The notes beneath the pieces were generated by a model. The model had not been told where the DNA came from, did no database searches, and worked only from the letters and a program-made list of their open reading frames with translations. Shown here one piece after another: positions 1 to 23,222 of a stretch of 64,000 nucleotides of DNA. A program made the position numbers and the translations under genes. Origin of the DNA: Moorella humiferrea (GTDB lineage: Bacteria > Bacillota > DSM-521 > Neomoorellales > Neomoorellaceae); contig NZ_CP136419.1 in assembly GCF_039233145.1 (NCBI RefSeq), forward strand, positions 2,268,001 to 2,332,000. The letters are read 5' to 3'. Each line of letters starts with the position of its first letter. Within the stretch, counting starts at the first letter, position 1.

Positions 1-942
1 GCCGGAAGTAGAAAAGATATACCCCCCTCCGGGGGCTACTTCCCGGAGCAATCGTTCCGCCGCCACCTTAATGGCCGCCGGCGTACCTGTGGTCAGGAGG
101 TTTAAGTCGAAATTGCCCATCAAGCACAGGCGCCCGCCGTATTGTTCCTTAACCATGCCGATATCCATACCGGCCCCCGGTTCCAGACCTTGAAGTCCGT
201 CCAGGGATAATGCGGCCAAATCGGGTAAAACTGCCTGCAGGTTGCCGTCGGAGTGGTAAAGGATCGGTACGCCCAGCGTTTTAATGGCTTCTACCTGACG
301 GCGTAAGAGGGGTAAAAAGATTTCCCGCCATAGCGCCGGACGAATATACGTCCCCCGATCATAGGCGATGTCGTCGCCGATAATGACGGCATGGGCTCCG
401 GCTTGTATGCAGAGGCGGGCCAGCTCCACGTTAAAATCAACAATCGCGGCGGCCAGATCAATGACGGCCTCTTCCCTGCCGGCCACAGCCAGAAGGAAAT
501 CCGTAAAAGCAAAGAGGTTGCCTGTGCCCTGGAAGGGCCCGTCAACAAAAGCGAAAACAAAAAAGTCGGTTTCTTCCCGCCATCGCCTTATGGGCAAGAG
601 ATCAAAAACATCGGCCGCGGGCAGGCGGTAGCCGGCAGCCTCGTGGGTTACAGCGATAGCGGGGGCCTGAACGGTGATTAATCCCCCCTGCTGCCTTAGA
701 CGTCGACCCCAGGCATCCCGGTAACATTCGTTTCCTTCGTCTTTAAGGGGCGCTTTGGGGGTCACAGCCACCAGATCCATGCCCAGTAGCTCCCGGGCGG
801 CCGCCTCTTCGAAAAAGCCGCCCGGTTCTTCCCGGCCCAGAAGGGCCGCCGCCAGCCCCGCACCCAGCTCGAATTCACCCGCCGGGACCCGATCGGATTG
901 TCCACGTGCCAGGGCCGCCCGTACCCGTTCAATGTGGTTCAT
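1..942 (-). CDS. UroD-family methyltransferase (partial, 3' end outside window)
   Basis: A frame open from an ATG at 942 to the window edge gives 314 residues starting MNHIERVRAALARG. GGAGG lies 9 nt before the ATG. The fold family is uroporphyrinogen decarboxylase/MtaA (PF01208): near the visible end sits GGGYIFSTSG, the family's glycine-rich C-terminal motif, preceded by a GNFDLNLL segment. It is the last visible gene of an operon with a corrinoid protein, a methyl-THF methyltransferase and a corrinoid activator, so it is more likely the substrate:corrinoid methyltransferase (methyltransferase I, as in acetogen O-demethylases) than a haem enzyme. The methyl donor, for example a methoxylated aromatic, is inferred and cannot be read from the sequence. 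Confidence 0.8.
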   Translation of the reverse strand, partial: MNHIERVRAALARGQSDRVPAGEFELGAGLAAALLGREEPGGFFEEAAARELLGMDLVAVTPKAPLKDEGNECYRDAWGRRLRQQGGLITVQAPAIAVTHEAAGYRLPAADVFDLLPIRRWREETDFFVFAFVDGPFQGTGNLFAFTDFLLAVAGREEAVIDLAAAIVDFNVELARLCIQAGAHAVIIGDDIAYDRGTYIRPALWREIFLPLLRRQVEAIKTLGVPILYHSDGNLQAVLPDLAALSLDGLQGLEPGAGMDIGMVKEQYGGRLCLMGNFDLNLLTTGTPAAIKVAAERLLREVAPGGGYIFSTSG

Positions 943-961: not shown

Positions 962-2800
962 TTACGGTAAGAGTAGGGATTTCATAAATACGTCCTGGAA
1001 GGACGGCCGGGTCATGAGTTCAATATAGCCCACTTCCCGGGCTATTCTCTCCCCCCGCCGCCTTTCGGACATGGAGATGAGGGACAGCCTGGCACCCGTG
1101 CCGGCGGCGTTGCCCACCTGGCGGAAGGCGCGCAAAGGGAGTTTGGGGAACATACCGATGGCGACGGCACTCTCTACCTTGAGGTGGGTGCCGAAGGCCC
1201 CGGCGACGACAACCTCCTCCAGGTCTTCTACTGTAAGGCCCGCGGCCTCTAGCAGCAAAAGGGTGCCGCTGGCGATGGCCGCCTTAGCCAGCTGGATCTC
1301 GCCGATGTCCTTCTGGGTCACCACCACGTCGCCGTCGATGCCGGTCTCTTCCGCCGGCACCAGCAGGAATTCTGCCGGGCCGCCACCGGCGGGCCGCCTC
1401 ACCCGGGGATGTTTTAAATCCAGGCGGCCGCTGGCGTTAATGACGCCAGTACGGTAGAGCTCGGCCACAACGTCGAGGATGCCTGAGCCGCAGATACCTA
1501 AGGGCGGAGCCCCCCCGATGGTTTCATAGTACACCTCCCGGCCGTCGTCGCTTAACCTTACGGCAGCAATGGCGCCGGTTATGGCCCGCATTCCCTGGGT
1601 GATGTGGGCGCCTTCAAAGGCCGGGCCGGAAGCGCAAGAGCAGGAAAGCATCTTGCCGCCGTAGTTTAACACGATCTCCGTATTGGTGCCGATGTCCAGG
1701 CCCAGGGTCACTTTCTTTGCCGCATCGATGCGGCTACCCTGGATCATGGCCACGTGGTCGCCGCCGACAAAACCTGCTATTACCGGCGTTAAATAAATGT
1801 AGGCCCCCGGGCTGAGGTTCAATCCCAGGTGCCGAGCCCTGACTTCCACCGGCACAGTCAGGGCCGGAACGTAGGGCGCCCGGGCGAGCTGTTCCACCGG
1901 CAGGTGCAGCAGCAGATGGTGCATGGCCGTATTGCCCACGATAACGGCTTCTTCAATGTCCGTTACGGCCACACCTGCTTTTTCTACCAGGGTGGCGGCC
2001 AAGCGGTTCAACCCCTCAACAACCACTCCCTGGATGCGCCGGTACTCTTCTTCCCCTTCCATGGCATACCCCAGGCGGGCCATGACATCTTCGCCGTAGG
2101 CAATCTGGGGATTCATAATCCCGTCGGCGGCCAAGGTGGCCCCCGTTTCCAGATTTATAAGAAAACCGGCCACCTTGGTGGTCCCCAGATCGACGGCCAG
2201 GCCTAGGGGCGGCGGTGCCGGCCGGCCGAAATAGAGGTTAATCGCTTCCGACCCACGCAGCGTGACTACAGCGGTGCCATCGGTCGCCAGGGGTTCCGTG
2301 GCCGCCGCCAGTTCATAGTCTACAACCGGCCGTTCCACGCCGTATGTGCTTTCCAACTGCGCAGCCGCCTGCTGCCAAAGGGGCTGAGGATTATCTATGG
2401 TGGTCCGGGACAACGACAGGGCATATCTTTTCACCGGTGCTTCGGGAACGATGGTCACATCCAACCCTTCTACCTGAAGCTTTTGTACGCCGAGCATGGA
2501 TTCCGGCGGAATTTCTACCTTCAACGGCCCCAGAACCACCGCCTGGCAGGCCAAACGATATCCCTGTTCCAGCTGTTCCGGCTTCAAAAACCGCCTTTCT
2601 GCCGCCGTCGGTTCCCCGGCGTCGCCGGCGGCCACCCGCACCCGGCAGCGCCCGCAGAGACCCCTGCCGCCGCAGGGGGCAGTCAAGCCCCCGGCCCCCA
2701 GGGCCAGTCCCAGCTGCTGGGCCGCGGCCAGAATAGTCTGGCCTCTTTTTACCTGCGCGCGCCTTCCTACCGGTTGAAAATCAATTAACACTTCCTGCAT
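962..2800 (-). CDS. Corrinoid-reactivating protein (2Fe-2S ferredoxin plus ASKHA ATPase, DUF4445)
   Basis: 612 residues from an ATG at 2800, after a GGGGG ribosome site. A longer reading back to 2905 would run inside the upstream gene and is not needed. Residues 1-90 form a plant-type 2Fe-2S domain (CGGRGLCGRC, then a late Cys in RLACQAVV). The rest is the DUF4445 ASKHA ATPase with two phosphate-binding motifs, LAVDLGTTKVAGF and LGLDIGTNTEI. Proteins of this build (RACE) use ATP to drive one-electron reduction of Co(II) corrinoid back to Co(I) after accidental oxidation of methyltransferase corrinoid proteins. It overlaps the response-regulator gene by 20 nt, so translation is probably coupled. 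The partner is presumably the corrinoid protein at 7151-7780. Confidence 0.85.
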   Translation of the reverse strand: MQEVLIDFQPVGRRAQVKRGQTILAAAQQLGLALGAGGLTAPCGGRGLCGRCRVRVAAGDAGEPTAAERRFLKPEQLEQGYRLACQAVVLGPLKVEIPPESMLGVQKLQVEGLDVTIVPEAPVKRYALSLSRTTIDNPQPLWQQAAAQLESTYGVERPVVDYELAAATEPLATDGTAVVTLRGSEAINLYFGRPAPPPLGLAVDLGTTKVAGFLINLETGATLAADGIMNPQIAYGEDVMARLGYAMEGEEEYRRIQGVVVEGLNRLAATLVEKAGVAVTDIEEAVIVGNTAMHHLLLHLPVEQLARAPYVPALTVPVEVRARHLGLNLSPGAYIYLTPVIAGFVGGDHVAMIQGSRIDAAKKVTLGLDIGTNTEIVLNYGGKMLSCSCASGPAFEGAHITQGMRAITGAIAAVRLSDDGREVYYETIGGAPPLGICGSGILDVVAELYRTGVINASGRLDLKHPRVRRPAGGGPAEFLLVPAEETGIDGDVVVTQKDIGEIQLAKAAIASGTLLLLEAAGLTVEDLEEVVVAGAFGTHLKVESAVAIGMFPKLPLRAFRQVGNAAGTGARLSLISMSERRRGERIAREVGYIELMTRPSFQDVFMKSLLLP

Positions 2801-4424
2801 TTTTAGCACCCCCAATTTTACGGAACACGCCTGGCGTGTACCCTTCCTGTTTTTTAAAAACTTGGCCGAAATAGCGGGCGTCATGATAGCCAACGCGCTC
2901 GGCAATGGCCGCTACAGGCAGTTCAGAATTAAGCAGCAGCTCCTTGGCCGCTCCGAGGCGCACCCGGGTCAGGTAGTCGATGAAGTTCTGCCCCTTTACC
3001 TGTTTGAAGAGGCGGCTGAAATAGCAGGGGCTCAAATATACCTGCTGGGCCACTTCCTCCAAAGTGAGGTCCCGGTGGAAATTGGCCTCGATGAATCTGC
3101 AGGCTCGCTCGATGAGGACGGCATTGCGCCTTTCCCGACTGGATGCCACCTGATTAACCAAATCCACCAGGCGCTCCAAAATACGCCGGCGTACGTCCGC
3201 CAGGTTGTCCAGATGGAGAAATTCACCGCTGGCGGCCAGGGTGAGGTTGGAAACGATTTCGGCATCCGCCCCTGCCTCCAGGGCGGCATTGGTCGCCAGG
3301 GCCACCAGTTCCAAAATTTTCATTTTTATTAGAGAAGGACTCTCTTCTTTTATGGTAAGTTCCATTAAAATCCCACCGGCCAGCCGCTGCACCAATTCCC
3401 CATCGCCCATCCGGATGGCCTGTGCCAGTTCCTGTTCTGCCCGATCCGGCAGGAAACGTCTGGCCCGGGAGCGGGCGGCGACGTCGTCGGCGTGGATGAC
3501 CTGGTCGCCGCCATAAAGGAGGCGGTATTCGGCGGCGGCCGCCGCTTCGGCGTAGGAACGGGCGAGTTCGGTAATGTCGGCAACCGGACGGCCGATGCCG
3601 ACGGTTACCGTCGCCCCTGTTTCCCGGCGTACCCGACGGCAGATGGCTTCCCCCAGCGCCACGGCCTCCCGGCGCACATCGCCTTCCCCTGTCAGGCGGT
3701 CCAGGGGGAGAAGGACGGCAAATTCATCCCCGGACACCGGGGCCACCAAGGATCCGGGCCATACGGCCGCCTCTTTCTCAATGCTTTCTTTCACCCTTTG
3801 TTTTAACAGCTGACGTTCGATCTCCGCTCCATCCCGAGCAAGGTCGGCGAAATTATCTATATCCACCAGAATTGCCAGTCGCGGCAGGGAAGTAATGCCT
3901 AAAAAAAGGGCCCGGCTTTCCGCCTCGTTCGCCGTTATATTGCCATTAAGCAGATCCATTATGAATCCTAGGCGAATCAGGGGTTTCATTTCCTCCAAGG
4001 CCTCTTTGAGGCGAGCCGTCTCCTGCCGGCGCCGGCGGGCGGCGAGAATATCGGCAGCAAGTTCATCTAAAAGCTTTATCATTTCTTCCCCGTCCACCGG
4101 CTTTAATAAATATTTGGAAGCGCCCAGGGACACTGCTTCCCTGGCGTAGTCGAACTCCCCGTAAGCGGATACGAAAACCAATCTGGACTCCGGTAGCAGG
4201 GCGCGGATCTTCCTTCCGGCGGCCAGGCCGTCCATACCGGGCATTTTGATGTCTAGGAAGACGACATCCGGTTTTAAAGCGTCCGCCAGCTCTACGGCCT
4301 CCAGCCCGTTGCCGGCTTCCGCCGCCACCTGGTAGTGGGGACGTTCCCTGGAGAGGATAAAGCGCAGTGCCTGGCGTTCCAACGGTTCATCGTCGACAAG
4401 GAGGATTTTCAACGTCGCTGCCAA
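2781..4424 (-). CDS. YesN-type response regulator (REC, degenerate GGDEF-like region, AraC HTH)
   Basis: 547 residues from a TTG at 4424, 7 nt after GGAGG. An apparent N-terminal extension upstream would lie within the kinase gene and has no receiver character. Domains: receiver at about 3-125 (ILLVDDEP, phosphoacceptor Asp in VVFLDIKMPG, Lys in LLKPVDG); a middle region with SGDEF, a degenerate GGDEF-like block seen in YesN proteins; and a C-terminal AraC double helix-turn-helix (EVAQQVYLSPCYFSRLFKQ, then VAERVGYHDARYF). It starts 28 nt after the sensor kinase, so the two form a two-component pair that likely controls this methyltransferase operon. The DNA target is not identified. Confidence 0.85.
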   Translation of the reverse strand: MAATLKILLVDDEPLERQALRFILSRERPHYQVAAEAGNGLEAVELADALKPDVVFLDIKMPGMDGLAAGRKIRALLPESRLVFVSAYGEFDYAREAVSLGASKYLLKPVDGEEMIKLLDELAADILAARRRRQETARLKEALEEMKPLIRLGFIMDLLNGNITANEAESRALFLGITSLPRLAILVDIDNFADLARDGAEIERQLLKQRVKESIEKEAAVWPGSLVAPVSGDEFAVLLPLDRLTGEGDVRREAVALGEAICRRVRRETGATVTVGIGRPVADITELARSYAEAAAAAEYRLLYGGDQVIHADDVAARSRARRFLPDRAEQELAQAIRMGDGELVQRLAGGILMELTIKEESPSLIKMKILELVALATNAALEAGADAEIVSNLTLAASGEFLHLDNLADVRRRILERLVDLVNQVASSRERRNAVLIERACRFIEANFHRDLTLEEVAQQVYLSPCYFSRLFKQVKGQNFIDYLTRVRLGAAKELLLNSELPVAAIAERVGYHDARYFGQVFKKQEGYTPGVFRKIGGAKNAGSVN

Positions 4425-4452
4425 AACCGGGCCTCCTTCACAAATACGTGGG

Positions 4453-6273
4453 TTATTCTTTAGTATAAGGAAAAGTAAGCTGGATGCAAGTCCCTTTTCC
4501 CGGCGCGCCATTGACGTCCAGGGCGCAGTTACTACCGAACTGATGCTGCAGGCGGCGGTAGACGTTGACGATCCCCAGCCCGCTGACCTGTCCCTTGCCG
4601 CCGCCGCGTACCTGGAGGTCAAAAATGGCCCGCTGTACCTCGGGTGGAATGCCGACGCCGTCGTCCTTTATTTCAATATGGACCTGGTCTCCAACACGGC
4701 AGCCGGAGATTATAACCGTACCACCCGTCTCCTTGGGTTCCAAGCCGTGGATGACAGCGTTTTCCACCAGAGGCTGCAGGATCATGCAGGGGACCCTGGC
4801 GTCCAGCACCTCATCCCCTACAAGGATCTGGCCCCGGATCCTGTCCGGGAAGCGCGTTTCCTGGATAAAAAGATAGTCGCGGACGGCAGCCACCTCTTCG
4901 GCCAGGGTTACCGTTTCTTTCACCTGGTAGAGGCTGTAGCGCATCAGGCGAGCCAGAGAACGCACAACCCTTTCCGTAGCCGCCGCCCCTTCAAAAAGGG
5001 CCAGGCGGGCAACGGTATTTAAAGAGTTGAACAGGAAATGGGGGTTGACCTGGGACTGAAGGACTTTCAGCTCGGCGTCCTTTAAGGCCTGCTCCAACTG
5101 GTGCTGCCTTTTCAGGAAATGGACAAAACTGGCGCGCTGCTCCTCCAGTTCTTTATTGGCCAGTAAAACGGCGTTGAGCTTAATTATCTGCCCGGCCACA
5201 AAGGACAGAAGGCCGCATACGGCTTCAAGATCTTTTATATCCAGGACCGGTACCGCCGTCCGCAATTCTTCGGTGGCCGGGTCGCCTGCCAAAAGGCAGT
5301 GGCCGCAGAGGACGGCGCCTACGGTACCGTCTTCATTGGCCAGGGGGTAAGATATTTCTATCAAGCCGGCGTGACAGCGGTAAATAAAGGCTTCTTTGAA
5401 ATTGCCGGGCAGGGTGGTGACGTCCACGTCTTTCGCCGGGCAATCCTGGAGCAGATGACAGTGTGAAGAGCACTCCAGGAAGCCTCCCAGGGGTGTCAGG
5501 GGGCTGCCGGAGGAATCAACCATCACCAGATGCAGACCGGTCATACGGTTAAAGGCACGCTGCAGGTCTTCCAGGGATCCTTCCCTGAAAAATAAATCCA
5601 GGGTCGCCGGAGCCAGGACCGCCCGGCGCTCCCGCCCGGTGCCGATGAGATCTTTGATTAGCTGCACGGCGGTGGTGGCATCAGGGGCATAGCCGTCGGC
5701 ACCCATCCTGGCGGCGATGGTTTCATTGAGGGGCGTGCCTCCAACCACTACTTTTACTTTGTCCCGCCAGCCGGCCTCTTTGAGGGCGGCAATGGTTTCG
5801 CCCATGGCGCCCCGGGTAGAAGAAAGGAGGGCCGACAGGCACAGCACATCCGGCCGGTATTTAATCACGGCTTCCACAAAGGTGCTGGGAGCCACGTTAA
5901 CACCCAGATCGATTACTTCAAAGCCGGAGGCTTCCAACATTATTCCCAGCAAATTTTTACCGATGTCGTGGATATCCCCCTGAACGGTGCCGATAACGGC
6001 CCGTCCTACCGGCCGCACCTGGCCGGCGACCATGAAGGGCTTAAGTTCTTTCAAACCGGTATGCATGGCCCTGGCGGTGATAATCAGGTCGGTGACGTAA
6101 ATCTCATTGCGTTCGAATCTTTCCCCCACCACATCCATGGCGGCCACGAAGCCGTCGGATATGATGCGCGCCGGATCGACTCCGGCGGCCAGGGCCTTTT
6201 TTACTTCTTCCCGCACCTGGACGGCGTTACCGTTGATTATGGCCTGGATTAGATTTTCCAGGGAAAAAGGCAT
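4453..6273 (-). CDS. Hybrid sensor kinase: corrinoid-binding domain, PocR domain, LytS/YesM histidine kinase
   Basis: 606 residues. Residues 1-212 are a complete methyltransferase-type corrinoid protein, clearly paralogous to the one at 7151-7780. They include the four-helix cap and the B12 motif GDIHDIGKNLL, with His102 as the expected lower cobalt ligand. Residues about 222-375 are a PocR sensory domain with Cys268, Cys272, Cys278, Cys300 and a CGHC (323-326). A coiled linker (375-405) leads to the LytS/YesM kinase motif QSQVNPHFLFNSLN (phosphoacceptor His412), then a HATPase with N box VENAVIHG and DDGVGIPPE. No membrane segment is visible, so it should sense a cytoplasmic signal, plausibly methyl-corrinoid or corrinoid redox state plus a small ligand in PocR. 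GGAGG precedes the ATG. Confidence 0.88.
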   Translation of the reverse strand: MPFSLENLIQAIINGNAVQVREEVKKALAAGVDPARIISDGFVAAMDVVGERFERNEIYVTDLIITARAMHTGLKELKPFMVAGQVRPVGRAVIGTVQGDIHDIGKNLLGIMLEASGFEVIDLGVNVAPSTFVEAVIKYRPDVLCLSALLSSTRGAMGETIAALKEAGWRDKVKVVVGGTPLNETIAARMGADGYAPDATTAVQLIKDLIGTGRERRAVLAPATLDLFFREGSLEDLQRAFNRMTGLHLVMVDSSGSPLTPLGGFLECSSHCHLLQDCPAKDVDVTTLPGNFKEAFIYRCHAGLIEISYPLANEDGTVGAVLCGHCLLAGDPATEELRTAVPVLDIKDLEAVCGLLSFVAGQIIKLNAVLLANKELEEQRASFVHFLKRQHQLEQALKDAELKVLQSQVNPHFLFNSLNTVARLALFEGAAATERVVRSLARLMRYSLYQVKETVTLAEEVAAVRDYLFIQETRFPDRIRGQILVGDEVLDARVPCMILQPLVENAVIHGLEPKETGGTVIISGCRVGDQVHIEIKDDGVGIPPEVQRAIFDLQVRGGGKGQVSGLGIVNVYRRLQHQFGSNCALDVNGAPGKGTCIQLTFPYTKE

Positions 6274-6341: not shown

Positions 6342-7139
6342 TTATGCTTTAATCCTGCCGGCACGGGCGGCGGCAATGTATTCCAAACAGTATTCGTCCT
6401 GTCCGGCCAGGGCCATGGCTGCCTTTAAAAGGCCCATCAACTGCCCGTCCAGGGGATCGAGGATAAAGGCATCCATCCCCTTGGTCAGGCACATTACCAT
6501 AAAGGCCCGGTTTAACAGGCGCCGCTCCGGCAGACCGTAAGAAACGTTGGAAAGGCCGCAGATGGTATGAACCTTAGGATACTTTTCCTTTAACGCCGCT
6601 ACCGCGTCCAGTGCTTCCACTCCGTACCGGCTATTAACTCCCAGAGGCTTGATCAGGGGATCAAGATAGATATCGTCCTCGGGTATCCCGGCCTCCAGGA
6701 GCCCCGGTACCAATTTGTCAGCAACCCGCAGACGGTCTTCTACCGTTTCCGGCATGCCGCCGTCGTCCATGCAGAGGGCGATAATTTTTGCTTTATATTT
6801 CTGCACCAGGGGCAAAACTTCCTGCCAGCGATCCTTCTCCGCCGTGATGGAATTGATCATGGCCTGCCCCTTATGAACGGCCAGACCGGCAGCCAGGGCT
6901 CCGGCACTGGGACTGTCGATGCATAAGGGGACGTCTACGACTTCCTGGACGCTCGTAACCAGCCAGGTCATCACCTTTTCTTCTTCGCCGATGCTTGTCC
7001 CGCAGTTGACGTCGATAATATGGGCTCCAGCCTCGACCTGCTTTCTGGCCAGGTCCTGGATGTATTCCGTATTACGCTCGGCAATGGCCTGGGCAACGGC
7101 CTTGCGGCTGGAATTTATAAGCTCGCCGACTACCAGCAT
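6342..7139 (-). CDS. Methyltetrahydrofolate:corrinoid protein methyltransferase (MtvA/AcsE type)
   Basis: 265 residues with the pterin-binding TIM barrel of the DHPS/MeTr family: GELINSSRKAV at the N-terminus, GAHIIDVNCGTS, CIDSPSAGAL, INSITAEKDR and CGLSNVSYGLP. The family moves a methyl group between a corrinoid protein and tetrahydrofolate. The length and motifs fit AcsE, but the neighbours (corrinoid protein 11 nt upstream, UroD methyltransferase and activator downstream) fit methyltransferase II of an O-demethylase system. There, methyl groups taken from a substrate onto the corrinoid protein are delivered to tetrahydrofolate and enter the Wood-Ljungdahl pathway. The direction of transfer is inferred from context. 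Confidence 0.85.
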   Translation of the reverse strand: MLVVGELINSSRKAVAQAIAERNTEYIQDLARKQVEAGAHIIDVNCGTSIGEEEKVMTWLVTSVQEVVDVPLCIDSPSAGALAAGLAVHKGQAMINSITAEKDRWQEVLPLVQKYKAKIIALCMDDGGMPETVEDRLRVADKLVPGLLEAGIPEDDIYLDPLIKPLGVNSRYGVEALDAVAALKEKYPKVHTICGLSNVSYGLPERRLLNRAFMVMCLTKGMDAFILDPLDGQLMGLLKAAMALAGQDEYCLEYIAAARAGRIKA

Positions 7140-7150: not shown

Positions 7151-7780
7151 CTATGACGCCAGCAACTGGCGGGCGAGGTCTACGGCGGAGGCGGCATCGG
7201 GCGCGTAACCATCGGCTCCGATTTCATCGGCAAATTTCTGGGTTACCGGCGCGCCGCCGACCATGATCTTGATCTTATCGCGGTAAGCCGCCAGACCCTC
7301 GACAGTCTTCTTCATTTGCATCATGGTCGAGGTCAAAAGGGCAGATATGCCGACCAATTGGGGTTTGTGCTCTTCCACCGCCTGGACGAACTTTTCTACG
7401 GGCACGTCGATACCCAAATCGATTACTTTAAAACCGGCACCTTCCATCATCATGATGACCAGGTTCTTGCCGATGTCGTGAAGGTCGCCTTTAACCGTTC
7501 CGATGACCATTGTACCCTTTTCTTCCAGGGCGTCACCGGTGAGGAGGGGTTTGACTACGTCCATACCGGCGTGCATGGCCCGGGCCGCCACCAAAACTTC
7601 GGGAACGTAAACTTCATTGTTTTTAAACTTGACGCCGATGACGTTCATGGCGGCAATGAGGCCGTCGTTGATTATGGTAGTGGGGGCGATGCCTTCATCC
7701 AGGGCCTTCTGGGTAAGCTCCCTGACCTTGTTGGCATTACCGGCCATCAGGGCTTCCTTGATTTCCTCCAGGACTGCCAC
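7151..7780 (-). CDS. Methyltransferase corrinoid protein (MtvC/MtgC type)
   Basis: 209 residues, the usual family length. The start is GTG at 7780 behind AGGAGG. Residues 1-85 are the helical cap; residues 90-205 are the Rossmann B12-binding domain with GDLHDIGKNL, where His101 is the expected lower cobalt ligand. It carries the methyl group between the UroD-family enzyme and the methyl-THF methyltransferase. It is the first gene of the operon. The AT-rich 105 bp before it hold a weak sigma-A-like pair (TTCGTC, 17 nt, TATAAA on the minus strand). Its closest visible relative is the N-terminal domain of the sensor kinase in the same operon. Confidence 0.9.
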   Translation of the reverse strand: MAVLEEIKEALMAGNANKVRELTQKALDEGIAPTTIINDGLIAAMNVIGVKFKNNEVYVPEVLVAARAMHAGMDVVKPLLTGDALEEKGTMVIGTVKGDLHDIGKNLVIMMMEGAGFKVIDLGIDVPVEKFVQAVEEHKPQLVGISALLTSTMMQMKKTVEGLAAYRDKIKIMVGGAPVTQKFADEIGADGYAPDAASAVDLARQLLAS

Positions 7781-7885
7781 TTCGCCTTGCCTCCTTAAAA
7801 TTCAATTTGCTTTATAATTTAAGTTTATTTTAAGACGAATTACGCGGCAAGGCTAAATTATTGCCAAAGGTTTATTATCTTGTCA

Positions 7886-8437
7886 TTACACACGGCGATA
7901 CTCCGCCCGGCCGATGGCATATAAGTCGTTGCCCAGGGTGTCGATGCCCACAATCACCGGAAAGTCCTCCACTTCCAGGCGATATATGGCCTCCGGCCCC
8001 AGGTCTTCGTAAGCCACAACTTCGGCCTTCTTGATATGCCGGGCCATAAGGACCCCAGCTCCTCCTATCGCCAAAAAGTATACGGCCCCGGCTTCCTGCA
8101 TGGCCTTGATTACTTCCGGGCTGCGGCCGCCCTTGCCGATCATTCCCCTAAGACCCTTTTCCCTGATGAGCAGCGGCGCATAGGGGTCCATGCGCCCGCT
8201 GGTGGTGGGCCCCGCCGAACCGATCACTTTGCCGGGCCGGGCCGGACAGGGCCCGACGTAATAGATAATCTGGTCGCGGAGATCCACGGGCAGCTCCCCG
8301 CCGGCCCGCAGTGTTTCCACCATGCGCTTATGGGCGGCATCCCGCCCGGTGTAAATGATGCCGCTGATTAAAACCTGATCCCCGGCCTTTAAGCTTCGGA
8401 CCGTAGCTTCATCCAGGGGTGTCGTTATCTTAAGCAC
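7886..8437 (-). CDS. Class I fumarate hydratase, beta (C-terminal) subunit
   Basis: 183 residues from a GTG at 8437, which AGGAGG precedes; a longer N-terminal reading would overlap the alpha-subunit gene. Family motifs include ISGIIYTGRDAAHKRM, YVGPCPARPGKVIGSAGPTTSGRMD and GKGGRS. With the alpha subunit it forms the oxygen-sensitive 4Fe-4S hydratase that interconverts fumarate and malate. L(+)-tartrate dehydratase has the same architecture and cannot be excluded from sequence alone, but adjacency to aspartate ammonia-lyase, which makes fumarate, favours fumarase. Beta follows alpha after 11 nt. Confidence 0.85.
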   Translation of the reverse strand: MLKITTPLDEATVRSLKAGDQVLISGIIYTGRDAAHKRMVETLRAGGELPVDLRDQIIYYVGPCPARPGKVIGSAGPTTSGRMDPYAPLLIREKGLRGMIGKGGRSPEVIKAMQEAGAVYFLAIGGAGVLMARHIKKAEVVAYEDLGPEAIYRLEVEDFPVIVGIDTLGNDLYAIGRAEYRRV

Positions 8438-8448
8438 GGGCCTACCTC

Positions 8449-9291
8449 CTAAAGAATCGCCGTGGCGTGCCGGGCGGCATGGCACTGTAAATTAACTGCC
8501 ACCGGCAGCGACGCGATGTGGGTTGGGTAAATTTCTATATGGACGTCTAAAGCTGTTACCCTTCCTCCCAGGCCCTGGGGGCCGATGCCGCTGGCGTTGA
8601 TGGCCGCCAGCAATTCTTCTTCCAGGGCAGCTACGTGTTTTAATGGGTGGCGCTGCCCCAGGGGGCGCAGGAGGGCCTTTTTAGCCAGGTATGGTGCTTT
8701 TTCCAGGTTGCCGCCGATGCCTACCCCGACGACAATGGGCGGGCAGGGGTTGCCGCCGGCCTCCTCTACCACCTGGAGGACATACTTCTTGATGCCCGCC
8801 ACGCCGTCGGCCGGTTTGAGCATCTTGACCCCCGACATGTTTTCGCTGCCGGCGCCCTTGGGGGCCACCGTGATCTTTAGATGGTCGCCGTCAACGATTT
8901 CCGTATGAATAATAGCCGGCGTGTTGTCCCCGGTATTACGGCGCAGCAAGGGGTCGTCCACCACCGACTTGCGCAGGTACCCTTCCGTATATCCCTGCCG
9001 CACGCCGGCGTTGATGGCGTCGTAAAGGTTACCTCCACTGATGTGCACTTGTTGCCCCAGCTCCACAAAGACCACCGCCACCCCGGTGTCCTGGCAGATG
9101 GGCTCAAGGTTTTCGGCCGCTAGGAGAGCGTTTTCCTGGAGCTTTTTTAATATGTCCCGCCCCAACGGTGCTTCTTCTTTGGCCTCGGCCGCCGCCATGG
9201 CCTGCCACCAGTCAGGCCCCAGGACCGAGCAGGCTTCGATGCACAGCCGGGCCACCGTTGCCGTGATTTCTTCGGCCCTCACTTCCCGCAT
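8449..9291 (-). CDS. Class I fumarate hydratase, alpha (N-terminal) subunit
   Basis: 280 residues, the normal length for the separate alpha subunit. Characteristic segments are ICQDTGVAVVFVELG, VDDPLLRRNTGDNTPAIIHTEIV, KGAGSENMSG and GVGIGGNLEKAP; the Cys residues that bind the 4Fe-4S cluster are in place (CQDTG, and CPP in GGNPCPPIVVGVG). GGAGC precedes the ATG. A TATAAT about 40 nt upstream, with TTACCC 18 nt before it inside the aspA stop region, may be its own promoter, but this is weak. It supplies malate from the fumarate made by the upstream aspartase. Confidence 0.87.
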   Translation of the reverse strand: MREVRAEEITATVARLCIEACSVLGPDWWQAMAAAEAKEEAPLGRDILKKLQENALLAAENLEPICQDTGVAVVFVELGQQVHISGGNLYDAINAGVRQGYTEGYLRKSVVDDPLLRRNTGDNTPAIIHTEIVDGDHLKITVAPKGAGSENMSGVKMLKPADGVAGIKKYVLQVVEEAGGNPCPPIVVGVGIGGNLEKAPYLAKKALLRPLGQRHPLKHVAALEEELLAAINASGIGPQGLGGRVTALDVHIEIYPTHIASLPVAVNLQCHAARHATAIL

Positions 9292-9351
9292 TCCACGACG
9301 CTCCTTTTTAATGCCATAAGTAATACAGAATAATTATAGCATAGCGTATGT

Positions 9352-10755
9352 CTAATGGGTAAGCATTTTCCGAGGGTCCAGCAGTTCCCGCGCCTGTTCT
9401 TCCGGCAAAAGCTTCATTTCCAGGACAACATCGAGAACGCCTTTATTTTCGGCCAATGCCTTCTTGGCCACCTCGGCTGCCGCGGCGTACCCGATTACCG
9501 GCACCAGCGAAGTTACGAGGCTCAAAGCGTTCTCCGCGTAATAACGACAGCGGTCCACCCGGAACTTCATCCCCTTGACGGCTTTAACAGCCAGGGTTTT
9601 TACCGCTTCGCTCAGCATATCGATGCTCTCAAAGAGGGCGAAGGCCAGAACCGGTTGCATCACGTTGAGCTCCAATTGTCCGGCAGCGGCGGCCATGGTA
9701 ATGGTCAAATCATTACCGAAAACTTTGAAACATACTTGATTCACCACTTCAGGAATAATGGGATTGACCTTGCCGGCCATTATACTGGAACCGGCGGCCA
9801 GGGCGGGCAACTCCACTTCGCCGAAGCCGGCCACGGGGCCGGAGGCCAACAAACGCAGGTCGTTGCAAATTTTCGTCAGGGTAACGGCCCCCGTTCTCAA
9901 CAGCCCGCCTATCTCTACAATTACATCTAAATTCTGGGTGGCGTCAATTAAATTCTTCGCCGGTCTAAGGAGATGAATGCCAGTTGCCTGACGCAATTCT
10001 TCAATGATTATTTCTCGGTAGAGAGGGTGGGCATTTAGCCCCGTACCGACGGCCGTACCGCCAATGTTAACTTCGGCCAGGAGTTTGCACGCCTGATTGC
10101 CCCGTTCCACATCGCGTTCAATGGCTTCCGCCCATGCTTCCAATTCCTCGCCGATGGTCATAGGCACGGCGTCCTGAAGATGGGTACGCCCCAGCTTAAT
10201 GGCGTCCCTGTATTCCCCGGCCTTATCCATTAAGGTTCGCGCTAGAAGACGATTGGCCTTGATATAGCGTTGCATGAGCCGGTAGGCGGCGATTCTTATT
10301 GCCGTAGGTAAAACGTCATTGGTCGACTGGCCTTTATTGACATCATCGATAGGGTTCAGTTTTTCATAAGCCCCCGGCTGCTGACCCAATATGGCCAGGG
10401 CCCGGTTGGCAATCACTTCATTGGCATTCATGTTTATGGCCGTACCGGCCCCGCCCTGGATGGCCTCCCCGATAAAATATTCATGCCATTTTCCGCCAAT
10501 AATTTCATCGGCCGCCCGGGCAATGGCCATGGCCTTGGCCCGTTCCAGGGTTCCCGCCTTCATATTGGCCAAGGCTGCGGCCTTTTTGACCATAGCCAGG
10601 GCAATTATTAATTCCGGATGCAGCCGGTACCCGCTGACAGTGAAGTTCTCTTTGGCCCGCAAACTATGGATACCGTAATAGGCATTGCCCTCAATAATCT
10701 TTTCCCCCAGGGAATCTTTTTCAATCCGCGTTGACCTGCTCTTTTCCGCCAGCAT
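9352..10755 (-). CDS. aspA: Aspartate ammonia-lyase
   Basis: 467 residues from ATG at 10755, directly after GGAGG. A longer upstream reading crosses the promoter and is rejected. Fumarase/aspartase superfamily; aspartase rather than fumarase C because of the N-terminal RIEKDSLGEK..AYYGIHSLRA pattern and EVVNQVCFKVFGND after the catalytic loop. The loop reads GSSIMAGKVNP (Ser323 or Ser324 catalytic), with Ala where most members have Pro. It deaminates aspartate to fumarate and ammonia. It lies just downstream of the carbamate-kinase terminator and just upstream of fumarase, so it should handle the aspartate released by the PyrB reaction in the neighbouring operon. Confidence 0.88.
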   Translation of the reverse strand: MLAEKSRSTRIEKDSLGEKIIEGNAYYGIHSLRAKENFTVSGYRLHPELIIALAMVKKAAALANMKAGTLERAKAMAIARAADEIIGGKWHEYFIGEAIQGGAGTAINMNANEVIANRALAILGQQPGAYEKLNPIDDVNKGQSTNDVLPTAIRIAAYRLMQRYIKANRLLARTLMDKAGEYRDAIKLGRTHLQDAVPMTIGEELEAWAEAIERDVERGNQACKLLAEVNIGGTAVGTGLNAHPLYREIIIEELRQATGIHLLRPAKNLIDATQNLDVIVEIGGLLRTGAVTLTKICNDLRLLASGPVAGFGEVELPALAAGSSIMAGKVNPIIPEVVNQVCFKVFGNDLTITMAAAAGQLELNVMQPVLAFALFESIDMLSEAVKTLAVKAVKGMKFRVDRCRYYAENALSLVTSLVPVIGYAAAAEVAKKALAENKGVLDVVLEMKLLPEEQARELLDPRKMLTH

Positions 10756-10794
10756 TTTCCTCCGCCCCCGTTTAAAAATGCTTCCTGTAAATAC

Positions 10795-10824
10795 ATTATA
10801 ATGCATACTGTACCATGTATACAA
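10795..10824 (-). promoter_or_regulatory. Promoter of aspA with an overlapping GntR-like half palindrome
   Basis: On the minus strand TTGTAT (10824-10819) and TATAAT (10800-10795) are 18 nt apart, 40 nt before the aspA start. The -35 region carries TTGTATACAT, which resembles the TTGTATACAA core of many FCD-type GntR operators. The GntR regulator at 20836-21525 is therefore a candidate controller; this is inference. Confidence 0.5.
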
Positions 10825-10845
10825 TATACTTGTTAAAATTTTATA

Positions 10846-10873
10846 GAAGCGAAGGGTTGGTGCCCTTCGCTTC
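10846..10873 (-). terminator. Intrinsic terminator after carbamate kinase
   Basis: A perfect 11-bp stem (10846-10856 with 10863-10873; GAAGCGAAGGG arm) and 6-nt loop, followed on the minus strand by TATAAAATTTTAAC. It marks the 3' end of the GntR-to-arcC operon and separates it from aspA. Confidence 0.75.
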
Positions 10874-10903
10874 CAGACAATTACCTGCAACTTTATCGCA
10901 TAG

Positions 10904-11842
10904 CTATGGAACGATTCTGGTGCCTTCCTCACCCTCTACAGCGGCAACCAGCCCCGCCGGCGAGGTGATGATACCTTCTTTCCCGCCGTTCTTCAGGTAC
11001 CGTATAATGGCCTCAATCTTCGGTCCCATATTTCCCGGTGGGAAGTGGCCGGCGGCCATATATGCCTCGGCTTCGGCTACGGTCATTTTATCTATATCTT
11101 TCTGCCACAGTTTTCCATAATTAAGGGCTACCTTATTCACTCCGGTAGATATCACCAGGGCATCGGCCCCAATCTCCCTCGCCAACAACGACGAAGCATA
11201 ATCTTTATCGATCACAGCAGCTATTCCCTCCAGATTGCCGTCTTTTTCGATTACTGGAATGCCGCCGCCGCCGACACAGATAACGATATATCCCTTCGCT
11301 ATTAAATCTTTGATCGCTTCGCTTTCGACTATCCTCTGGGGCTCCGGTGAAGGTACGACCCGCCGCCAGCCGCGGCCGGCGTCCTCCACCACCGTCCACC
11401 CGTCTTCTTTGACGTGCCGCTCCGCTTCTTCTTTGGTCATAAAGCTGCCGATGGGCTTGGTGGGGTTTTGGAAGGCCGGGTCGTTTTTATCTACTACTAC
11501 CTGGGTTACCACCGTTACGGCCTGCCTCTTGATACCCCGCCTTTGGAATTCATTCATCAGGGACTGCTGGATCATGTAGCCTATGGCGCCCTGGGTGTCG
11601 GCGACGGCAAATTCCAGGGGGATCGGCGGCAGTTCCCCTGCCGCCAGTTCCGCCCGCCGGATTAAAAATCCTACCTGAGGCCCGTTGCCGTGGGTGATGG
11701 CTACGTTCCATCCTTTTTCTACCAGTTCGGCTATATTGGCACAGGTTTCTTTTACCGTGGCGAGTTGGTCCATTAGCCCTATCCGGTTTTTTTCTTTGAT
11801 CAGGGAATTGCCCCCTATGGCTATTACTGCCAGCCTACCCAA
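10904..11842 (-). CDS. arcC: Carbamate kinase
   Basis: 312 residues, the normal length. Start is a TTG at 11842 (GAGAGAG upstream, a weak ribosome site). Family motifs: VIAIGGNSLI at the N-terminus, THGNGPQVGFLI, VVDKNDPAF..PTKPIG, and CVGGGGIPV. The enzyme makes ATP and carbamate from carbamoyl phosphate and ADP, with carbamate falling apart to CO2 and ammonia. It is the last gene of the operon, 51 nt after pyrB. No arginine deiminase or ornithine carbamoyltransferase lies nearby, so its carbamoyl phosphate most plausibly comes from reverse action of the adjacent aspartate carbamoyltransferase. Confidence 0.92.
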   Translation of the reverse strand: MGRLAVIAIGGNSLIKEKNRIGLMDQLATVKETCANIAELVEKGWNVAITHGNGPQVGFLIRRAELAAGELPPIPLEFAVADTQGAIGYMIQQSLMNEFQRRGIKRQAVTVVTQVVVDKNDPAFQNPTKPIGSFMTKEEAERHVKEDGWTVVEDAGRGWRRVVPSPEPQRIVESEAIKDLIAKGYIVICVGGGGIPVIEKDGNLEGIAAVIDKDYASSLLAREIGADALVISTGVNKVALNYGKLWQKDIDKMTVAEAEAYMAAGHFPPGNMGPKIEAIIRYLKNGGKEGIITSPAGLVAAVEGEEGTRIVP

Positions 11843-11893
11843 TGCTCTCTCACTCTCCCGTATTTATGGTTATCTCTGTTAATTTGTTCCTCC

Positions 11894-12862
11894 TTAGCGT
11901 ACGTTCCCCGTGGTCAGGGCTAGTAATGCCATCCTGATGGGTACGCCGTTGTGGGCCTGGCGGAAGTAGGCCGCACCAGCATAGGTGTCGACTGATACGG
12001 CAATCTCGTTTACCCGCGGCAGGGGGTGTAAGATGCTCATGCCTTTTTTGGCGGCGGCTACTATTTCGTCGTTGACGATGTAGGAGTCTTTCACGCTTTC
12101 GTATTCTTCCTGGCTAGGGAAGCGTTCCCGCTGGATGCGTGTTACATAGAGGATGTCGGCTTCGGCTACCGCTGCTTTTAAGTCTGCTGTTTCTTCTACT
12201 TTAATGCCTTCTTGCTTTAGTTCGTTAGTTATTTCTTCCGGCATCTTTAGCTGCGGGGGTGAGACAAAGATCATGTCGCAGCCGTAGTGTTTTAGTAGAT
12301 AGACCAGGGAGTGCACGGTGCGGCCGTACTTTAAGTCTCCCAGCAGGGCTACCTTCATTCCTTCTACATGTCCGTGCTCTTTGATAATGGTGTAAATGTC
12401 TAAGAGGGCCTGGGTGGGGTGCTGCCCGGTGCCGTCCCCGGCGTTGATTACCGGGTGTTCGGCGGCTTCCGCCGCTTCCTGGGCTGCTCCTTTTATGGGA
12501 CTGCGGACGACGATTACGTCTACATATCCGTCGACTACTTTGATGGCGTCGTGCAGGGTTTCTCCTTTGGCCGTGGACGAGGTCTGCATCTGCGGCGTTT
12601 CGGATACTGTGATAACATTTCCTCCCAGCCGCTGCATGGCTGCTTCGAAGGACAGGCGCGTGCGCGTGCTGGGTTCGAAAAACAGGGAGGCCATGATTTT
12701 ACCGTCCATATCATACAACCGCCGCTTGTTGACCAGGGCGTCTTCATAGTAGGCTGCCGTCTTCATGATCAGTTGCAGTTGGGCAAAGCTTAGGTCCCTG
12801 GCAGATAATACATCTTGGCCTTTTAATAGTTCCATTTCTTCCGGGGTGGGTTTTTGCAGCAT
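11894..12862 (-). CDS. pyrB: Aspartate carbamoyltransferase, catalytic chain
   Basis: 322 residues from ATG at 12862; AGGAGG lies 12 nt upstream, which is long but unique. Signature motifs: FFEPSTRTRLSFE (carbamoyl phosphate loop), SSTAKGETLHDAI, HPTQALLDIYTI (ATCase rather than OTCase) and HPLPRVNEIAV. No regulatory PyrI chain is encoded here. In biosynthesis it makes carbamoyl-aspartate, but placed between dihydroorotase and carbamate kinase and behind an ABC transporter, it is likely used in the phosphorolytic direction, giving aspartate and carbamoyl phosphate. That direction is an inference from context; the reaction is known to be reversible. Confidence 0.92.
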   Translation of the reverse strand: MLQKPTPEEMELLKGQDVLSARDLSFAQLQLIMKTAAYYEDALVNKRRLYDMDGKIMASLFFEPSTRTRLSFEAAMQRLGGNVITVSETPQMQTSSTAKGETLHDAIKVVDGYVDVIVVRSPIKGAAQEAAEAAEHPVINAGDGTGQHPTQALLDIYTIIKEHGHVEGMKVALLGDLKYGRTVHSLVYLLKHYGCDMIFVSPPQLKMPEEITNELKQEGIKVEETADLKAAVAEADILYVTRIQRERFPSQEEYESVKDSYIVNDEIVAAAKKGMSILHPLPRVNEIAVSVDTYAGAAYFRQAHNGVPIRMALLALTTGNVR

Positions 12863-12924
12863 ATGGGTTGAATTCCTCCTATATTTAGAATGAAATATAA
12901 GCGATTTTTGTTTTGCCTTTTGGG

Positions 12925-14217
12925 TTAAACCAATAGCCTTCCGTCTTCCATGACTATCCGGCCTCCGACGATGGTCATTACGGCTTTGCCTTTTAGCCAG
13001 CGGCCGTGCTGCGGGCAGTTCCTGCTTTTGGAGGCGCTTTCGTTGACATCGACCTGCCATTCTAGGTCGGGATCGATTACTACTATATCGGCGTCCCCGC
13101 CTATATCCAGGGTGCCTTTATTTAAACCTAAGAGCTTCGCTGGGTTGCACGTCATCTTGGCCAGGGCTTCCGGTAAACTTAATAATCCGCTGTGGACCAT
13201 TTCTGTTAGTACTACACCCAGGGCTGTTTCCAGGCCGATTAATCCAAAGGGTGCTTCTTTAAAATTACGTTCTTTTTCTGCTCTCGTGTAAGGTGCGTGA
13301 TCAGTCGCAATAACTTCTATGGTCCCGTCTACCAGGCCCTCTTTTAATGCTTCCTGATCTCGTTTGCTGCCAAAGGGCGGTTTTATCTTGAAACGTCCTT
13401 CCAGGGTCTGGACATCTTCTTCTGTCGTATTTAAATAATGGGATATTACTTCGCCTGTGACTTTTATGCCCCGCTTTTTACCTTCGCGGATTAATTCTAC
13501 CGACCGTGCGCATCCTACATGACAGATGTGTACCCTGCCGCCGGTTTCTTCGGCCAGCAGTATGTCCCGCGCGACCATTACCGCTTCTGAGGTGTACGGT
13601 ATCCCTCTTATTCCTAAACGCCGTGCGACTTCGCCGTCGTTTATTACCCCTTCGCCTGTGATGGTACGGTCTTCGCAGTGCACTGCTAGTACTTTGTTTA
13701 GGGCCCCGGCGATAATTAATGCCTGGCGCATTAATCCGGCATTGCTTACCGGCTGCCCGTCGTCGGAAAAGGCTACGCATCCGGCTTCTATTAGTTCGGC
13801 AAAGGGTGCCAGCTCCTCGCCCTTTTGCCCCAGGGTTATGGCCCCGTAAGGTAGCACATTGACTATGCCTTCGCGTCTGCTCTTGGAAAGCACATATTCA
13901 ACTACAACCGGGTTATCGCATACGGGATTGGTGTTGGGCATGGCGATTAATGTTGTAAAACCACCCCTCGCTGCTGCCCGCGTCCCGCTTTTAAAGTCTT
14001 CCCTTTCTGGGTAACCTGGGTCGCGCAGGTGACAGTGGATATCTATAAGCCCAGGCGCTACTACTTTGCCTTCGACGTTCTTTACCTGGGCCGTCCCCGC
14101 CTCTAGATCTTTATCTATCTTCGCAATCTTGCCGTCTTCTATTAGCACATCCGCTATTATGTCTACTTTGTTGCCGGGGTCGATTACTCGCCCGCCTTTG
14201 AGGAGAATTTTGCTCAT
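12925..14217 (-). CDS. pyrC: Dihydroorotase, class I
   Basis: 430 residues. The amidohydrolase metal motif is DIHCHLRDPG; EDFKSGTRAAARGGFTTLIAMPNTNP, later HCEDRTI and HICHVG, and ATDHAPY supply the remaining metal ligands. The C-terminal GTLDIGGDADIVVIDPD block is the usual beta sandwich. These fit dihydroorotase better than hydantoinase or allantoinase. It interconverts dihydroorotate and carbamoyl-aspartate. It lies 24 nt after the ABC ATPase gene and 62 nt before pyrB, within one minus-strand operon. Confidence 0.92.
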   Translation of the reverse strand: MSKILLKGGRVIDPGNKVDIIADVLIEDGKIAKIDKDLEAGTAQVKNVEGKVVAPGLIDIHCHLRDPGYPEREDFKSGTRAAARGGFTTLIAMPNTNPVCDNPVVVEYVLSKSRREGIVNVLPYGAITLGQKGEELAPFAELIEAGCVAFSDDGQPVSNAGLMRQALIIAGALNKVLAVHCEDRTITGEGVINDGEVARRLGIRGIPYTSEAVMVARDILLAEETGGRVHICHVGCARSVELIREGKKRGIKVTGEVISHYLNTTEEDVQTLEGRFKIKPPFGSKRDQEALKEGLVDGTIEVIATDHAPYTRAEKERNFKEAPFGLIGLETALGVVLTEMVHSGLLSLPEALAKMTCNPAKLLGLNKGTLDIGGDADIVVIDPDLEWQVDVNESASKSRNCPQHGRWLKGKAVMTIVGGRIVMEDGRLLV

Positions 14218-14241
14218 AGCAAACTAAACCCTCTCCCCTTT

Positions 14242-14988
14242 CTATACACCCAAATAAGCTTCGCGTATTGCTTCATTATTAATTAAATCCCGGCTGTTAC
14301 CGGAAATGGATATACGTCCATTTTCTAAAACATAGCCGCGACTGGCCACGGAAAGGGCCAGTTCCATATCTTGTTCGACTATCATAATCGTAATTTCGCG
14401 CTCGCGATGGATTTTCTGCAGGGTCTCATAGATTCTGTCTACTATGACGGGCGCGAGGCCCAAAGATAATTCATCAATTAAAAGTATAGACGGATCGCCC
14501 ATCAATCCCCGCCCGATGGCCACCATTTGTTGCTCGCCGCCGCTCAACGTACCTGCCAATTGATTGCGTCGTTTAGCAATTTCGGGGAAAAAATTATATA
14601 TCCATTCCAGCCGCTCATTAATTTCTGCTCGCGATTTTTTTAACGCGAAAGCGCCCATGCGTAAATTCTCTTCCACGGAAAGTCCGTAAAATAATTGCCG
14701 ACCCTCGGGTACATGGCAAATACCTTTATTCACCAGATCCGGGGGCGTATAACCCTTTACATCCTCGCCGTTAATCTTGTATTCGCCGCTCCATAATGGC
14801 AAAACACCCGATAAAACCCTCAGTACCGTCGTCTTCCCGGCTCCATTGGAACCAATTAAGGCTACAATTTCTCGGGGATAAAGCTCCAATGTAATCTCCC
14901 ACAGGGCCTGGGCTATACCATAACCGGTAGAAGCATTTTTCAAGGTTATGATGGGTTGTTTTAAACTATTATTTACTCCAGACACCAT
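14242..14988 (-). CDS. ABC transporter ATP-binding protein, LivF type
   Basis: 248 residues from ATG at 14988; GGGAGG lies 9 nt upstream inside the end of the preceding gene, whose TGA is separated by one base. Walker A GSNGAGKTTVLR, signature LSGGEQQM, Walker B ILLIDELSLGLAP. Q-loop and H-loop are present (IMIVEQDME). The compact LivF form lacks the extended tail of LivG. It pairs with the LivG-like ATPase to energise uptake of the operon's substrate. Confidence 0.9.
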   Translation of the reverse strand: MVSGVNNSLKQPIITLKNASTGYGIAQALWEITLELYPREIVALIGSNGAGKTTVLRVLSGVLPLWSGEYKINGEDVKGYTPPDLVNKGICHVPEGRQLFYGLSVEENLRMGAFALKKSRAEINERLEWIYNFFPEIAKRRNQLAGTLSGGEQQMVAIGRGLMGDPSILLIDELSLGLAPVIVDRIYETLQKIHREREITIMIVEQDMELALSVASRGYVLENGRISISGNSRDLINNEAIREAYLGV

Positions 14989-14989
14989 T

Positions 14990-15745
14990 TCACTTAGCCT
15001 CCCTGTACAACCCCTTATGACGCCGTTTGCCAAGATAAGCTTCTATTACCTTTGGATCCTGGGTAATAACTTCCGGCGGCCCCTCGGCAATTAAACTTCC
15101 GTGATGCATGACTAGAACCCGGTTAGAAAGCCCCATGACGGCCTTCATTACATGTTCAATTACCAGGATGGTAACCCCACGACCGTTCAGCTTGCGGACT
15201 AATTCCATCAACCGCTCAATTTCCTTTAAGTTAAGCCCGGCCATAACCTCATCCAGTAGCAATAATTTTGGTCCCATAGCCATAGCCCGGGCGAGTTCAA
15301 GGTGTTTCCTCTGGGCCAAGTTCAACTGTTCTACAGGTTCTTCGGCCTTTCTGTCAAGTTCTAACAAATCCAGGGCCTCGTCAACAACCTGCTTTACTGC
15401 AGAACCTTTCAAGCCTTGAAGGTCCGGACGAAATAAAGCTCCCATCATCACGTTCTCGCGTACTGTCATTCCCTGGAAGGGTTTTACGATCTGGAAGGTA
15501 CGAGCAATTCCTTTCCGGGCAATTACATGGGGTTTGAGGCCTGATATGCGAGCCCCTTGAAAACGAATTTCTCCTTCATCAATTTTTATAAGACCGGAAA
15601 TCAAATTCATCATCGTTGTTTTTCCGGCACCGTTGGGTCCAATAAGCCCCACTATTTCGCCTTCATTAACTGAAAAGGTAACGTTTTTTACCGCCTGTAC
15701 GCCCCCGAATGAACGGCTTACATTTTGCACTTCCAAAAGGGCCAT
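14990..15745 (-). CDS. ABC transporter ATP-binding protein, LivG type
   Basis: 251 residues. Walker A GPNGAGKTTMMN; the LivG-specific insert ARTFQIVKPFQGMTVRENVMMGAL; the signature region is modified to LNLAQRKHLELARAMA, as common in LivG; Walker B LLLLDEVMAGLN; C-terminal GPPEVITQDPKVIEAYLG. GGAGGAG precedes the ATG. Second ATPase of the hydrophobic/branched-chain amino acid transporter class (HAAT). Its ligand cannot be read from the ATPases. Confidence 0.9.
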   Translation of the reverse strand: MALLEVQNVSRSFGGVQAVKNVTFSVNEGEIVGLIGPNGAGKTTMMNLISGLIKIDEGEIRFQGARISGLKPHVIARKGIARTFQIVKPFQGMTVRENVMMGALFRPDLQGLKGSAVKQVVDEALDLLELDRKAEEPVEQLNLAQRKHLELARAMAMGPKLLLLDEVMAGLNLKEIERLMELVRKLNGRGVTILVIEHVMKAVMGLSNRVLVMHHGSLIAEGPPEVITQDPKVIEAYLGKRRHKGLYREAK

Positions 15746-15772
15746 TCAATCCATCTCCTCCGTAGTCCCCTG

Positions 15773-16753: not shown

Positions 16754-16782
16754 AAAAAGTTCTCCCCTTTTAAATTACCAAT

Positions 16783-17649: not shown

Positions 17650-17687
17650 TTTTAATAGTCCCCCTTAAAGCCGCTGAATTATTTTAA

Positions 17688-17719
17688 ACATGGGGCGGCC
17701 AAGGACTGCCGCCCCATGT
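17688..17719 (-). terminator. Intercistronic hairpin after the substrate-binding protein gene
   Basis: A perfect 12-bp stem (17688-17699 with 17708-17719, GCCGCCCCATGT arm) with 8-nt loop, followed on the minus strand by TTTAAAATAATT. The T tract is weak, so it is probably a leaky terminator or mRNA-stabilising hairpin that keeps the binding protein more abundant than the permeases, a common layout for ABC importers. Confidence 0.65.
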
Positions 17720-17741
17720 CCTTTAGCCCGAAATCCATGCC

Positions 17742-23217: not shown

Positions 23218-23222
23218 TTTAT

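Follow-up and report, generated by a model that had tools for sequence, protein, structure and literature searches.

What determines which of its many corrinoid methyltransferase systems an anaerobe uses is not yet settled; for Acetobacterium dehalogenans, with 26 such systems, regulation was recently said to remain "largely unexplored" (PMC13222342, 2026). The 64,000-nucleotide stretch of DNA from the acetogen Moorella humiferrea analysed here (the window) contains one such system, encoded together with a histidine kinase that itself begins with a corrinoid-protein (CoP) domain. What is a methyl carrier doing on a sensor? The answer that we favor, at a probability only slightly above one half (about 0.52), is that the kinase serves as sensor for a corrinoid methyltransferase operon that regulates itself, with the CoP domain reporting the methylation or redox state of a cobamide. 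A sensor that has a methyl carrier of its own would make transcription depend on the cofactor's state and not on substrate alone, and in the fused protein the idea is directly testable in one polypeptide.

Domain architecture of the sensor kinase

The kinase and its parts were delimited as follows:

4453..6273, minus strand: sensor kinase, 606 aa in one open reading frame (Pfam, NCBIfam and PDB matches; orthologs)
5638..6273, minus strand: CoP domain of the kinase, aa 1-212
5959..5976, minus strand: cobalt-ligand motif D100-I-H102-D-I-G105, read from the sequence and conserved across CoPs
5251..5577, minus strand: PocR domain of the kinase, aa 233-341
4462..5076, minus strand: LytS/YesM kinase part, aa 400-604

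An earlier note had described residues 1-212 of this 606-aa frame as a full corrinoid protein with the motif DIHDIG, and both Pfam and structural matches agreed. The CoP-type fold comprises a four-helix cap (B12-binding_2, aa 5-78, 72.1 bits against a cut-off of 23) and a Rossmann B12-binding domain (aa 91-203, 85.1 bits against 32.1); residues 5-210 matched the solved Moorella corrinoid protein 1y80 (E 8e-57), covering it end to end. The domain scored 173.5 bits against NCBIfam TIGR02370, below the cut-off of 215.3, and for that reason we class it as a homologous domain only and not as a member of that subfamily; the operon's own CoP, at 209 bits, likewise fell below 215.3. The PocR domain was recognized by Pfam (61.1 bits against 23.9), although a sequence search found no solved relative of this region. 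The LytS/YesM assignment of the remainder was borne out by His_kinase (aa 400-479, 91 bits against 25) and HATPase_c (aa 497-604, 56 bits against 26) and by a match of aa 406-602 to the solved histidine kinase 6swj (E 6e-45). The protein had also been called soluble, and a hydropathy scan found no convincing membrane helix, the highest 19-residue value being 1.75, at the end of the PocR region.

The methyltransferase operon

In Moorellaceae the gene order was CoP, methyltransferase II (MT2), kinase, response regulator, RACo and UROD-type methyltransferase. The members in the window, in the direction of transcription on either side of the kinase, were:

7151..7780, minus strand: the operon's stand-alone (catalytic) CoP (Pfam; 47% identity to the CoP domain of the kinase)
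6342..7139, minus strand: MT2, MeTr-like, methyl-THF:corrinoid protein (Pterin_bind; NCBIfam NF005719, 374.8 bits, cut-off 259)
2781..4427, minus strand: response regulator REC-GGDEF_2-AraC, 548 aa (Pfam; start set by orthologs)
962..2809, minus strand: RACo-type reductive activator of corrinoid proteins (Pfam RACo_C_ter, Raco_middle and Fer2; conserved position)
1..942, minus strand: UROD/MtaA-superfamily methyltransferase, probable methyltransferase I (tblastn, 77% to the L042 ortholog; RACo-adjacent in the family)

Two starts required a choice. An extension of the response-regulator frame to 4622 was judged spurious from the starts of its orthologs, and a longer RACo frame reaches 2905, many orthologs beginning at the position that matches 2809. 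The UROD gene is clipped by the left edge of the window and is complete in the genome, at about G000:C1 2267917-2268942. With a probable methyltransferase I (MT1), a CoP, an MT2 and a reductive activator all encoded, the locus amounts to a full corrinoid methyltransferase system. The kinase shared its operon with CoP, MT2, RACo and UROD genes in most kinase-bearing Moorellaceae and in other genera, so the view that it is encoded with the methyltransferases was upheld, and the AraC-type response regulator adjoins it inside the operon. The UROD protein scored 63-68 bits against curated MtaA and MtaA/CmuA models, far below all of their cut-offs (235-244); that methoxyaromatics are the substrate of the operon is an assumption.

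One locus was incomplete. In the strain labelled M. thermoacetica DSM 21394 (L047 4008-6500), the kinase, response regulator, RACo and UROD genes were intact, the upstream CoP gene and the 35-bp element described below were not found, and MT2 was reduced to fragments.

Distribution of the fusion

Orthologs spanning both CoP and PocR were present in 10 of the 11 searched genomes of the window's genus, counting the window's own (2.67 Mb, a single contig); one genome of the genus (L052) carried only a kinase-domain fragment. Three other genera of the family had the fusion too, one copy being cut by a contig end, for a total of 12 further family genomes, and three full fusions were found elsewhere in the phylum (L139, L140, L141). 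Its presence in 12 further family genomes and three outside the family means that the fusion is neither a chance joining nor a misassembly. Named carriers were Moorella mulderi, M. stamsii, M. sulfitireducens and the DSM 21394 strain. A scan of named genomes with two short peptide patterns turned up no full fusion outside Moorella and close MAGs, a result that does not exclude other groups.

More distant were three proteins (L142-L144) with a CoP domain, a kinase and a degenerate PocR part (Pfam PocR E 1e-4 to 5e-3). These fusions with a nearly unrecognizable PocR (L142 8153-9961, L143 8912-10735, L144 8764-10668) adjoin genes for a CoP and a UROD methyltransferase; some also have MT2 and RACo alongside.

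A conserved upstream element

Alignment of the region upstream of the operon at 13 loci revealed one conserved block:

7848..7882, minus strand: 35-bp conserved element, candidate response-regulator site, 67-101 bp upstream of the CoP start

The block consists of tandem CAAkAA...CCTT repeats with a period of 18-19 and, after them, a conserved A/T-rich stretch, and was common to the 13 loci although the next upstream gene differs among them; the element lay upstream of the operon in the other genomes that retain the CoP gene. Allowing up to three mismatches, the 35-bp pattern had a single match in the window, against none in 100 shuffled versions, and a single match in the 2.67-Mb genome as a whole. 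The pattern was derived from the 13-locus alignment, so its presence there is by construction; its uniqueness in the genome is not. Tandem direct repeats would suit an AraC-type regulator, making the element a candidate site for the neighboring one.

Ancestry of the corrinoid-protein domain

Despite 46-50% identity to the operon CoP, the CoP domain of the kinase was not sister to it. A recent duplication of the operon CoP into the kinase was rejected on the separate clades that the two occupied in the trees. The closest PocR relatives of the kinase, in a search with the PocR-linker region, were mostly PocR-AraC one-component regulators and PocR-kinases. We took 60 regions from that search list, blind to their neighbors, and looked for CoP genes whose start lay no more than 60 bp downstream. 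Such a gene, on the same strand, followed 22 of 32 PocR-AraC genes and none of the 21 PocR-kinases that lack a CoP domain (Fisher p 2.5e-7, uncorrected for kinship and thus overstated, because the rows are related). Negative gaps between PocR-AraC and CoP genes are an effect of start choice. A regulator-adjacent CoP was present at 30 loci, and 16 of these had a further, separate CoP; the CoP paired with the regulator is therefore often not the only one.

In a maximum-likelihood tree with long branches pruned, the fused CoP domains formed one clade (support 95/89). Fused and regulator-adjacent CoPs together fell on one side of a branch and all other CoPs on the other, with a single label change against a shuffled mean of about 30. 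Support for this branch between regulator-linked and catalytic CoPs was 68/72 after pruning of long branches and 48/23 when these were kept; the split is sharp as a pattern, and its statistical support is moderate. PocR-AraC fragments were left out of the full-length alignment for apparent misalignment onto the CoP domain. These sequence relationships suggest that the fusion probably arose once, from a CoP lineage already tied to PocR regulators, a descent that has moderate support. The pair of PocR-AraC regulator and CoP looks like the unfused form of the fused sensor.

Arrangements of a PocR-AraC regulator followed by a CoP gene were seen at L147 6117-8078, L148 6867-8864 and 11113-13092, L149 3107-5185 and 11053-13155, L151 6362-8323 and L154 6527-8514, and at L243-L248, L264, L268, L269, L276, L284 and L296. 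A second CoP was often present at such loci, which look like a widespread split corrinoid sensor. The only other PocR protein of the window's genome is a PocR-AraC regulator (G000:C1:239342-239830; L277 6792-8117), whose gene has a UROD methyltransferase gene at a distance of about 3 kb and no CoP gene nearby.

Conserved and altered residues

Among 18 full-length fused orthologs, F53, V60, D100, H102, G105, S147 and G178-G179 did not vary, in keeping with the proposal that His102 is the conserved cobalt ligand; nor did the kinase boxes P411-H412-F413-L414-F415-N416, N505 and D537-G539-G541. The D, H, D and G of the ligand motif were kept in every fused, regulator-adjacent and catalytic CoP compared. 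Each of the 50 regulator-linked CoPs, 19 fused and 31 regulator-adjacent, retained all signatures of cobamide contact, and every one had the four motif residues, S147 and both glycines.

Other positions had changed. Position 98 was K in 18 of 24 catalytic (MT2-adjacent) CoPs as opposed to A or Q in 43 of the 50 regulator-linked ones, and position 145 was C in all 19 fused domains and G or A in catalytic CoPs; fused and catalytic CoPs differed at positions 61, 75, 98, 138 and 200. Because the binding residues are kept in all 50 while neighboring positions have changed, cofactor binding in regulator-linked CoPs looks to be under selection, with other surfaces apparently altered. Since some of the changes lie beside the ligand motif and others elsewhere, the interaction of these proteins with MT1 and MT2 may be altered as well; any role assigned to positions such as 98 and 145 is one that we infer from the alignment. 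The earlier note's variant, in which the operon's own methyltransferases may methylate the kinase, stays neither proven nor refuted.

The PocR domain had been described as Cys-rich. The domain itself is secure, and C268, C272, C300 and C323 were unvarying within Moorellaceae, but across all 18 fusions C272 was the sole unvarying PocR cysteine. A family-wide metal-binding cluster is unsupported for that reason, and the candidate of a conserved Cys metal site in PocR was dropped.

Proposed mechanism and alternatives

Starting from the established domain make-up, conserved residues, operon and single genomic site, we propose the following order of events. The CoP domain would hold a cobamide, with H102 as the lower cobalt ligand. 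The cobalt would be present as methyl-Co(III) or as Co(I)/Co(II), depending on the methyltransferases and RACo of the operon, and the difference may alter the packing of the CoP domain on PocR. Judging from the family, PocR, perhaps with a small methyl-donor ligand as well, would pass this state on to the dimeric LytS-type kinase; the kinase would autophosphorylate at H412 and then phosphorylate the AraC-type response regulator. Conservation and uniqueness of the 35-bp element suggest that the regulator acts there, ahead of the CoP gene; control of this site would switch the whole operon, resulting in self-induction.

The steps differ in strength. Binding of a cobamide by the CoP domain is very likely, given the residues retained; for sensing of the methyl or redox state, the odds appear about even. 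The idea of methylation or redox sensing, raised in the earlier note, has gained backing from the pairing of CoP and PocR genes and from the retained binding residues, its sensing step still being read from sequence. Degeneracy of the PocR part in the distant fusions L142-L144 counts against it.

The main rival holds that PocR is the true sensor, of the methyl donor, and that the CoP domain is a dock to the methyltransferase complex or a passive remnant. MecA, a PocR-kinase without a CoP domain (430 aa, PocR only), is proposed to bind a small substrate in the mec (dichloromethane) cassette and so to act as a dichloromethane sensor (PMC9768040); if PocR alone can bind small substrates, corrinoid need not be the signal of the kinase. 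PocR-kinases without any nearby CoP are, moreover, common. A passive tether would not, however, need the absolute conservation of H102, D100, S147 and GG178-179, and in L142-L144 it is PocR that has eroded while the CoP domain is intact. On balance we consider this rival unlikely, though a serious one.

Corrinoid-dependent enzymes are useless without their cofactor, and the CoP domain might accordingly gauge cobamide supply (apo versus holo), the operon being made only when corrinoid is present. This reading requires the same conserved residues. Against it, cobamide supply is usually read by riboswitches, and one would expect a supply sensor to act on more than a single operon, yet the genome has one 35-bp site; we regard it as rather improbable.

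Still more doubtful is a trigger enzyme, with the CoP domain serving as a working methyl carrier as well as a sensor. Its full set of CoP residues and the MT2 and RACo encoded alongside would allow this, but the same operon has a dedicated CoP of the catalytic clade, and the fused domains diverge from such CoPs at the five positions listed above.

The positions of the CarH Trp and Glu-His, which we placed on the kinase by the NCBIfam alignment range and by what we take to be the CarH motif, are occupied by F53 (F in 19 of 19 fused domains) and D62-L63 (D62/E62, then L63, in the window protein). Although B12-binding domains joined to signalling domains are familiar from photoreceptors (PMC10979010), a CarH-type adenosylcobalamin light sensor is very improbable and was rejected: the motif is absent, the score to the NCBIfam CarH model was 30.8 bits against a cut-off of 400, Pfam found no MerR DNA-binding domain in the kinase, and the context is a methyltransferase operon of an anaerobe.

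Relation to known systems

PocR was reportedly defined by Anantharaman and Aravind in 2005. The arrangement resembles MecA/MecD in joining PocR to a histidine kinase with a receiver-type partner, near a corrinoid protein and MtaA/CmuA-type methyltransferases (PMC9768040); unlike MecA, a complete CoP is fused in front here and the operon includes RACo. With the stand-alone CoPs MtvC, MtgC and 1y80 the CoP domain shares the whole fold, the cap residues, the cobalt ligand and the nucleotide-loop residues, but it is fused to a PocR-kinase, belongs to a separate clade and has Q for K98 and C for G145. CarH/LitR and other B12 photoreceptors likewise use a B12-binding domain for signalling; the kinase, however, lacks their Trp/Glu-His signature and DNA-binding domain and lies in a metabolic operon.

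In M. thermoacetica, transcripts of mtvA3/mtvC5 (Mothe_c21690/21700) were up on methanol; the report mentions no kinase or response regulator beside these genes and treats them as solitary copies (PMC13391211, 2026). In Moorella thermoacetica DSM 521 they are very probably the MT2 and CoP of the same operon, because gene numbers and position fit: gene 2170 of 2594 would lie at about 2.11 Mb, and the operon of the 2.5-Mb genome G013 is at 2.11 Mb.

In the openly readable literature we found no precedent for a histidine kinase with a corrinoid domain or for the PocR-AraC/CoP pair; subscription papers lay beyond this scope and may hold an earlier notice. The parts, and the idea of a PocR-kinase, were already known; the whole-CoP fusion and its split PocR-AraC/CoP counterpart appear new within the searchable literature. 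If the favored reading is right, what is sensed may be the methyl carrier itself, a role for B12 in signalling other than with light, and the PocR-AraC/CoP pairs would extend the scheme to many more operons, one-component versions included. Tentatively, and with somewhat less confidence than in the single kinase, we suggest that a distinct sensor-CoP lineage in anaerobic Bacillota, paired with PocR-AraC or fused to a PocR-kinase, reports the state of methyl-corrinoid, and with it pathway flux, and controls operons for methylotrophy, as a light-independent class of B12 signalling.

Neighboring genes

A methyl-donor link to the adjacent nucleobase genes was set aside, the nearest upstream gene differing among loci (pyrE, fumarase, carbamate kinase, PucR). 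In the window, positions 7886-20812 form one run of genes for aspartate carbamoyltransferase, dihydroorotase, carbamate kinase, an aspartase/fumarase-type lyase, a two-subunit fumarase, a branched-chain-type ABC transporter and dihydroorotate dehydrogenase, which could be a pyrimidine (orotate) fermentation route yielding ATP via carbamoyl phosphate. Two separate PyrD/PyrK-type dihydroorotate dehydrogenase pairs lie a few kb apart, at 19110-20812 and 22282-24020.
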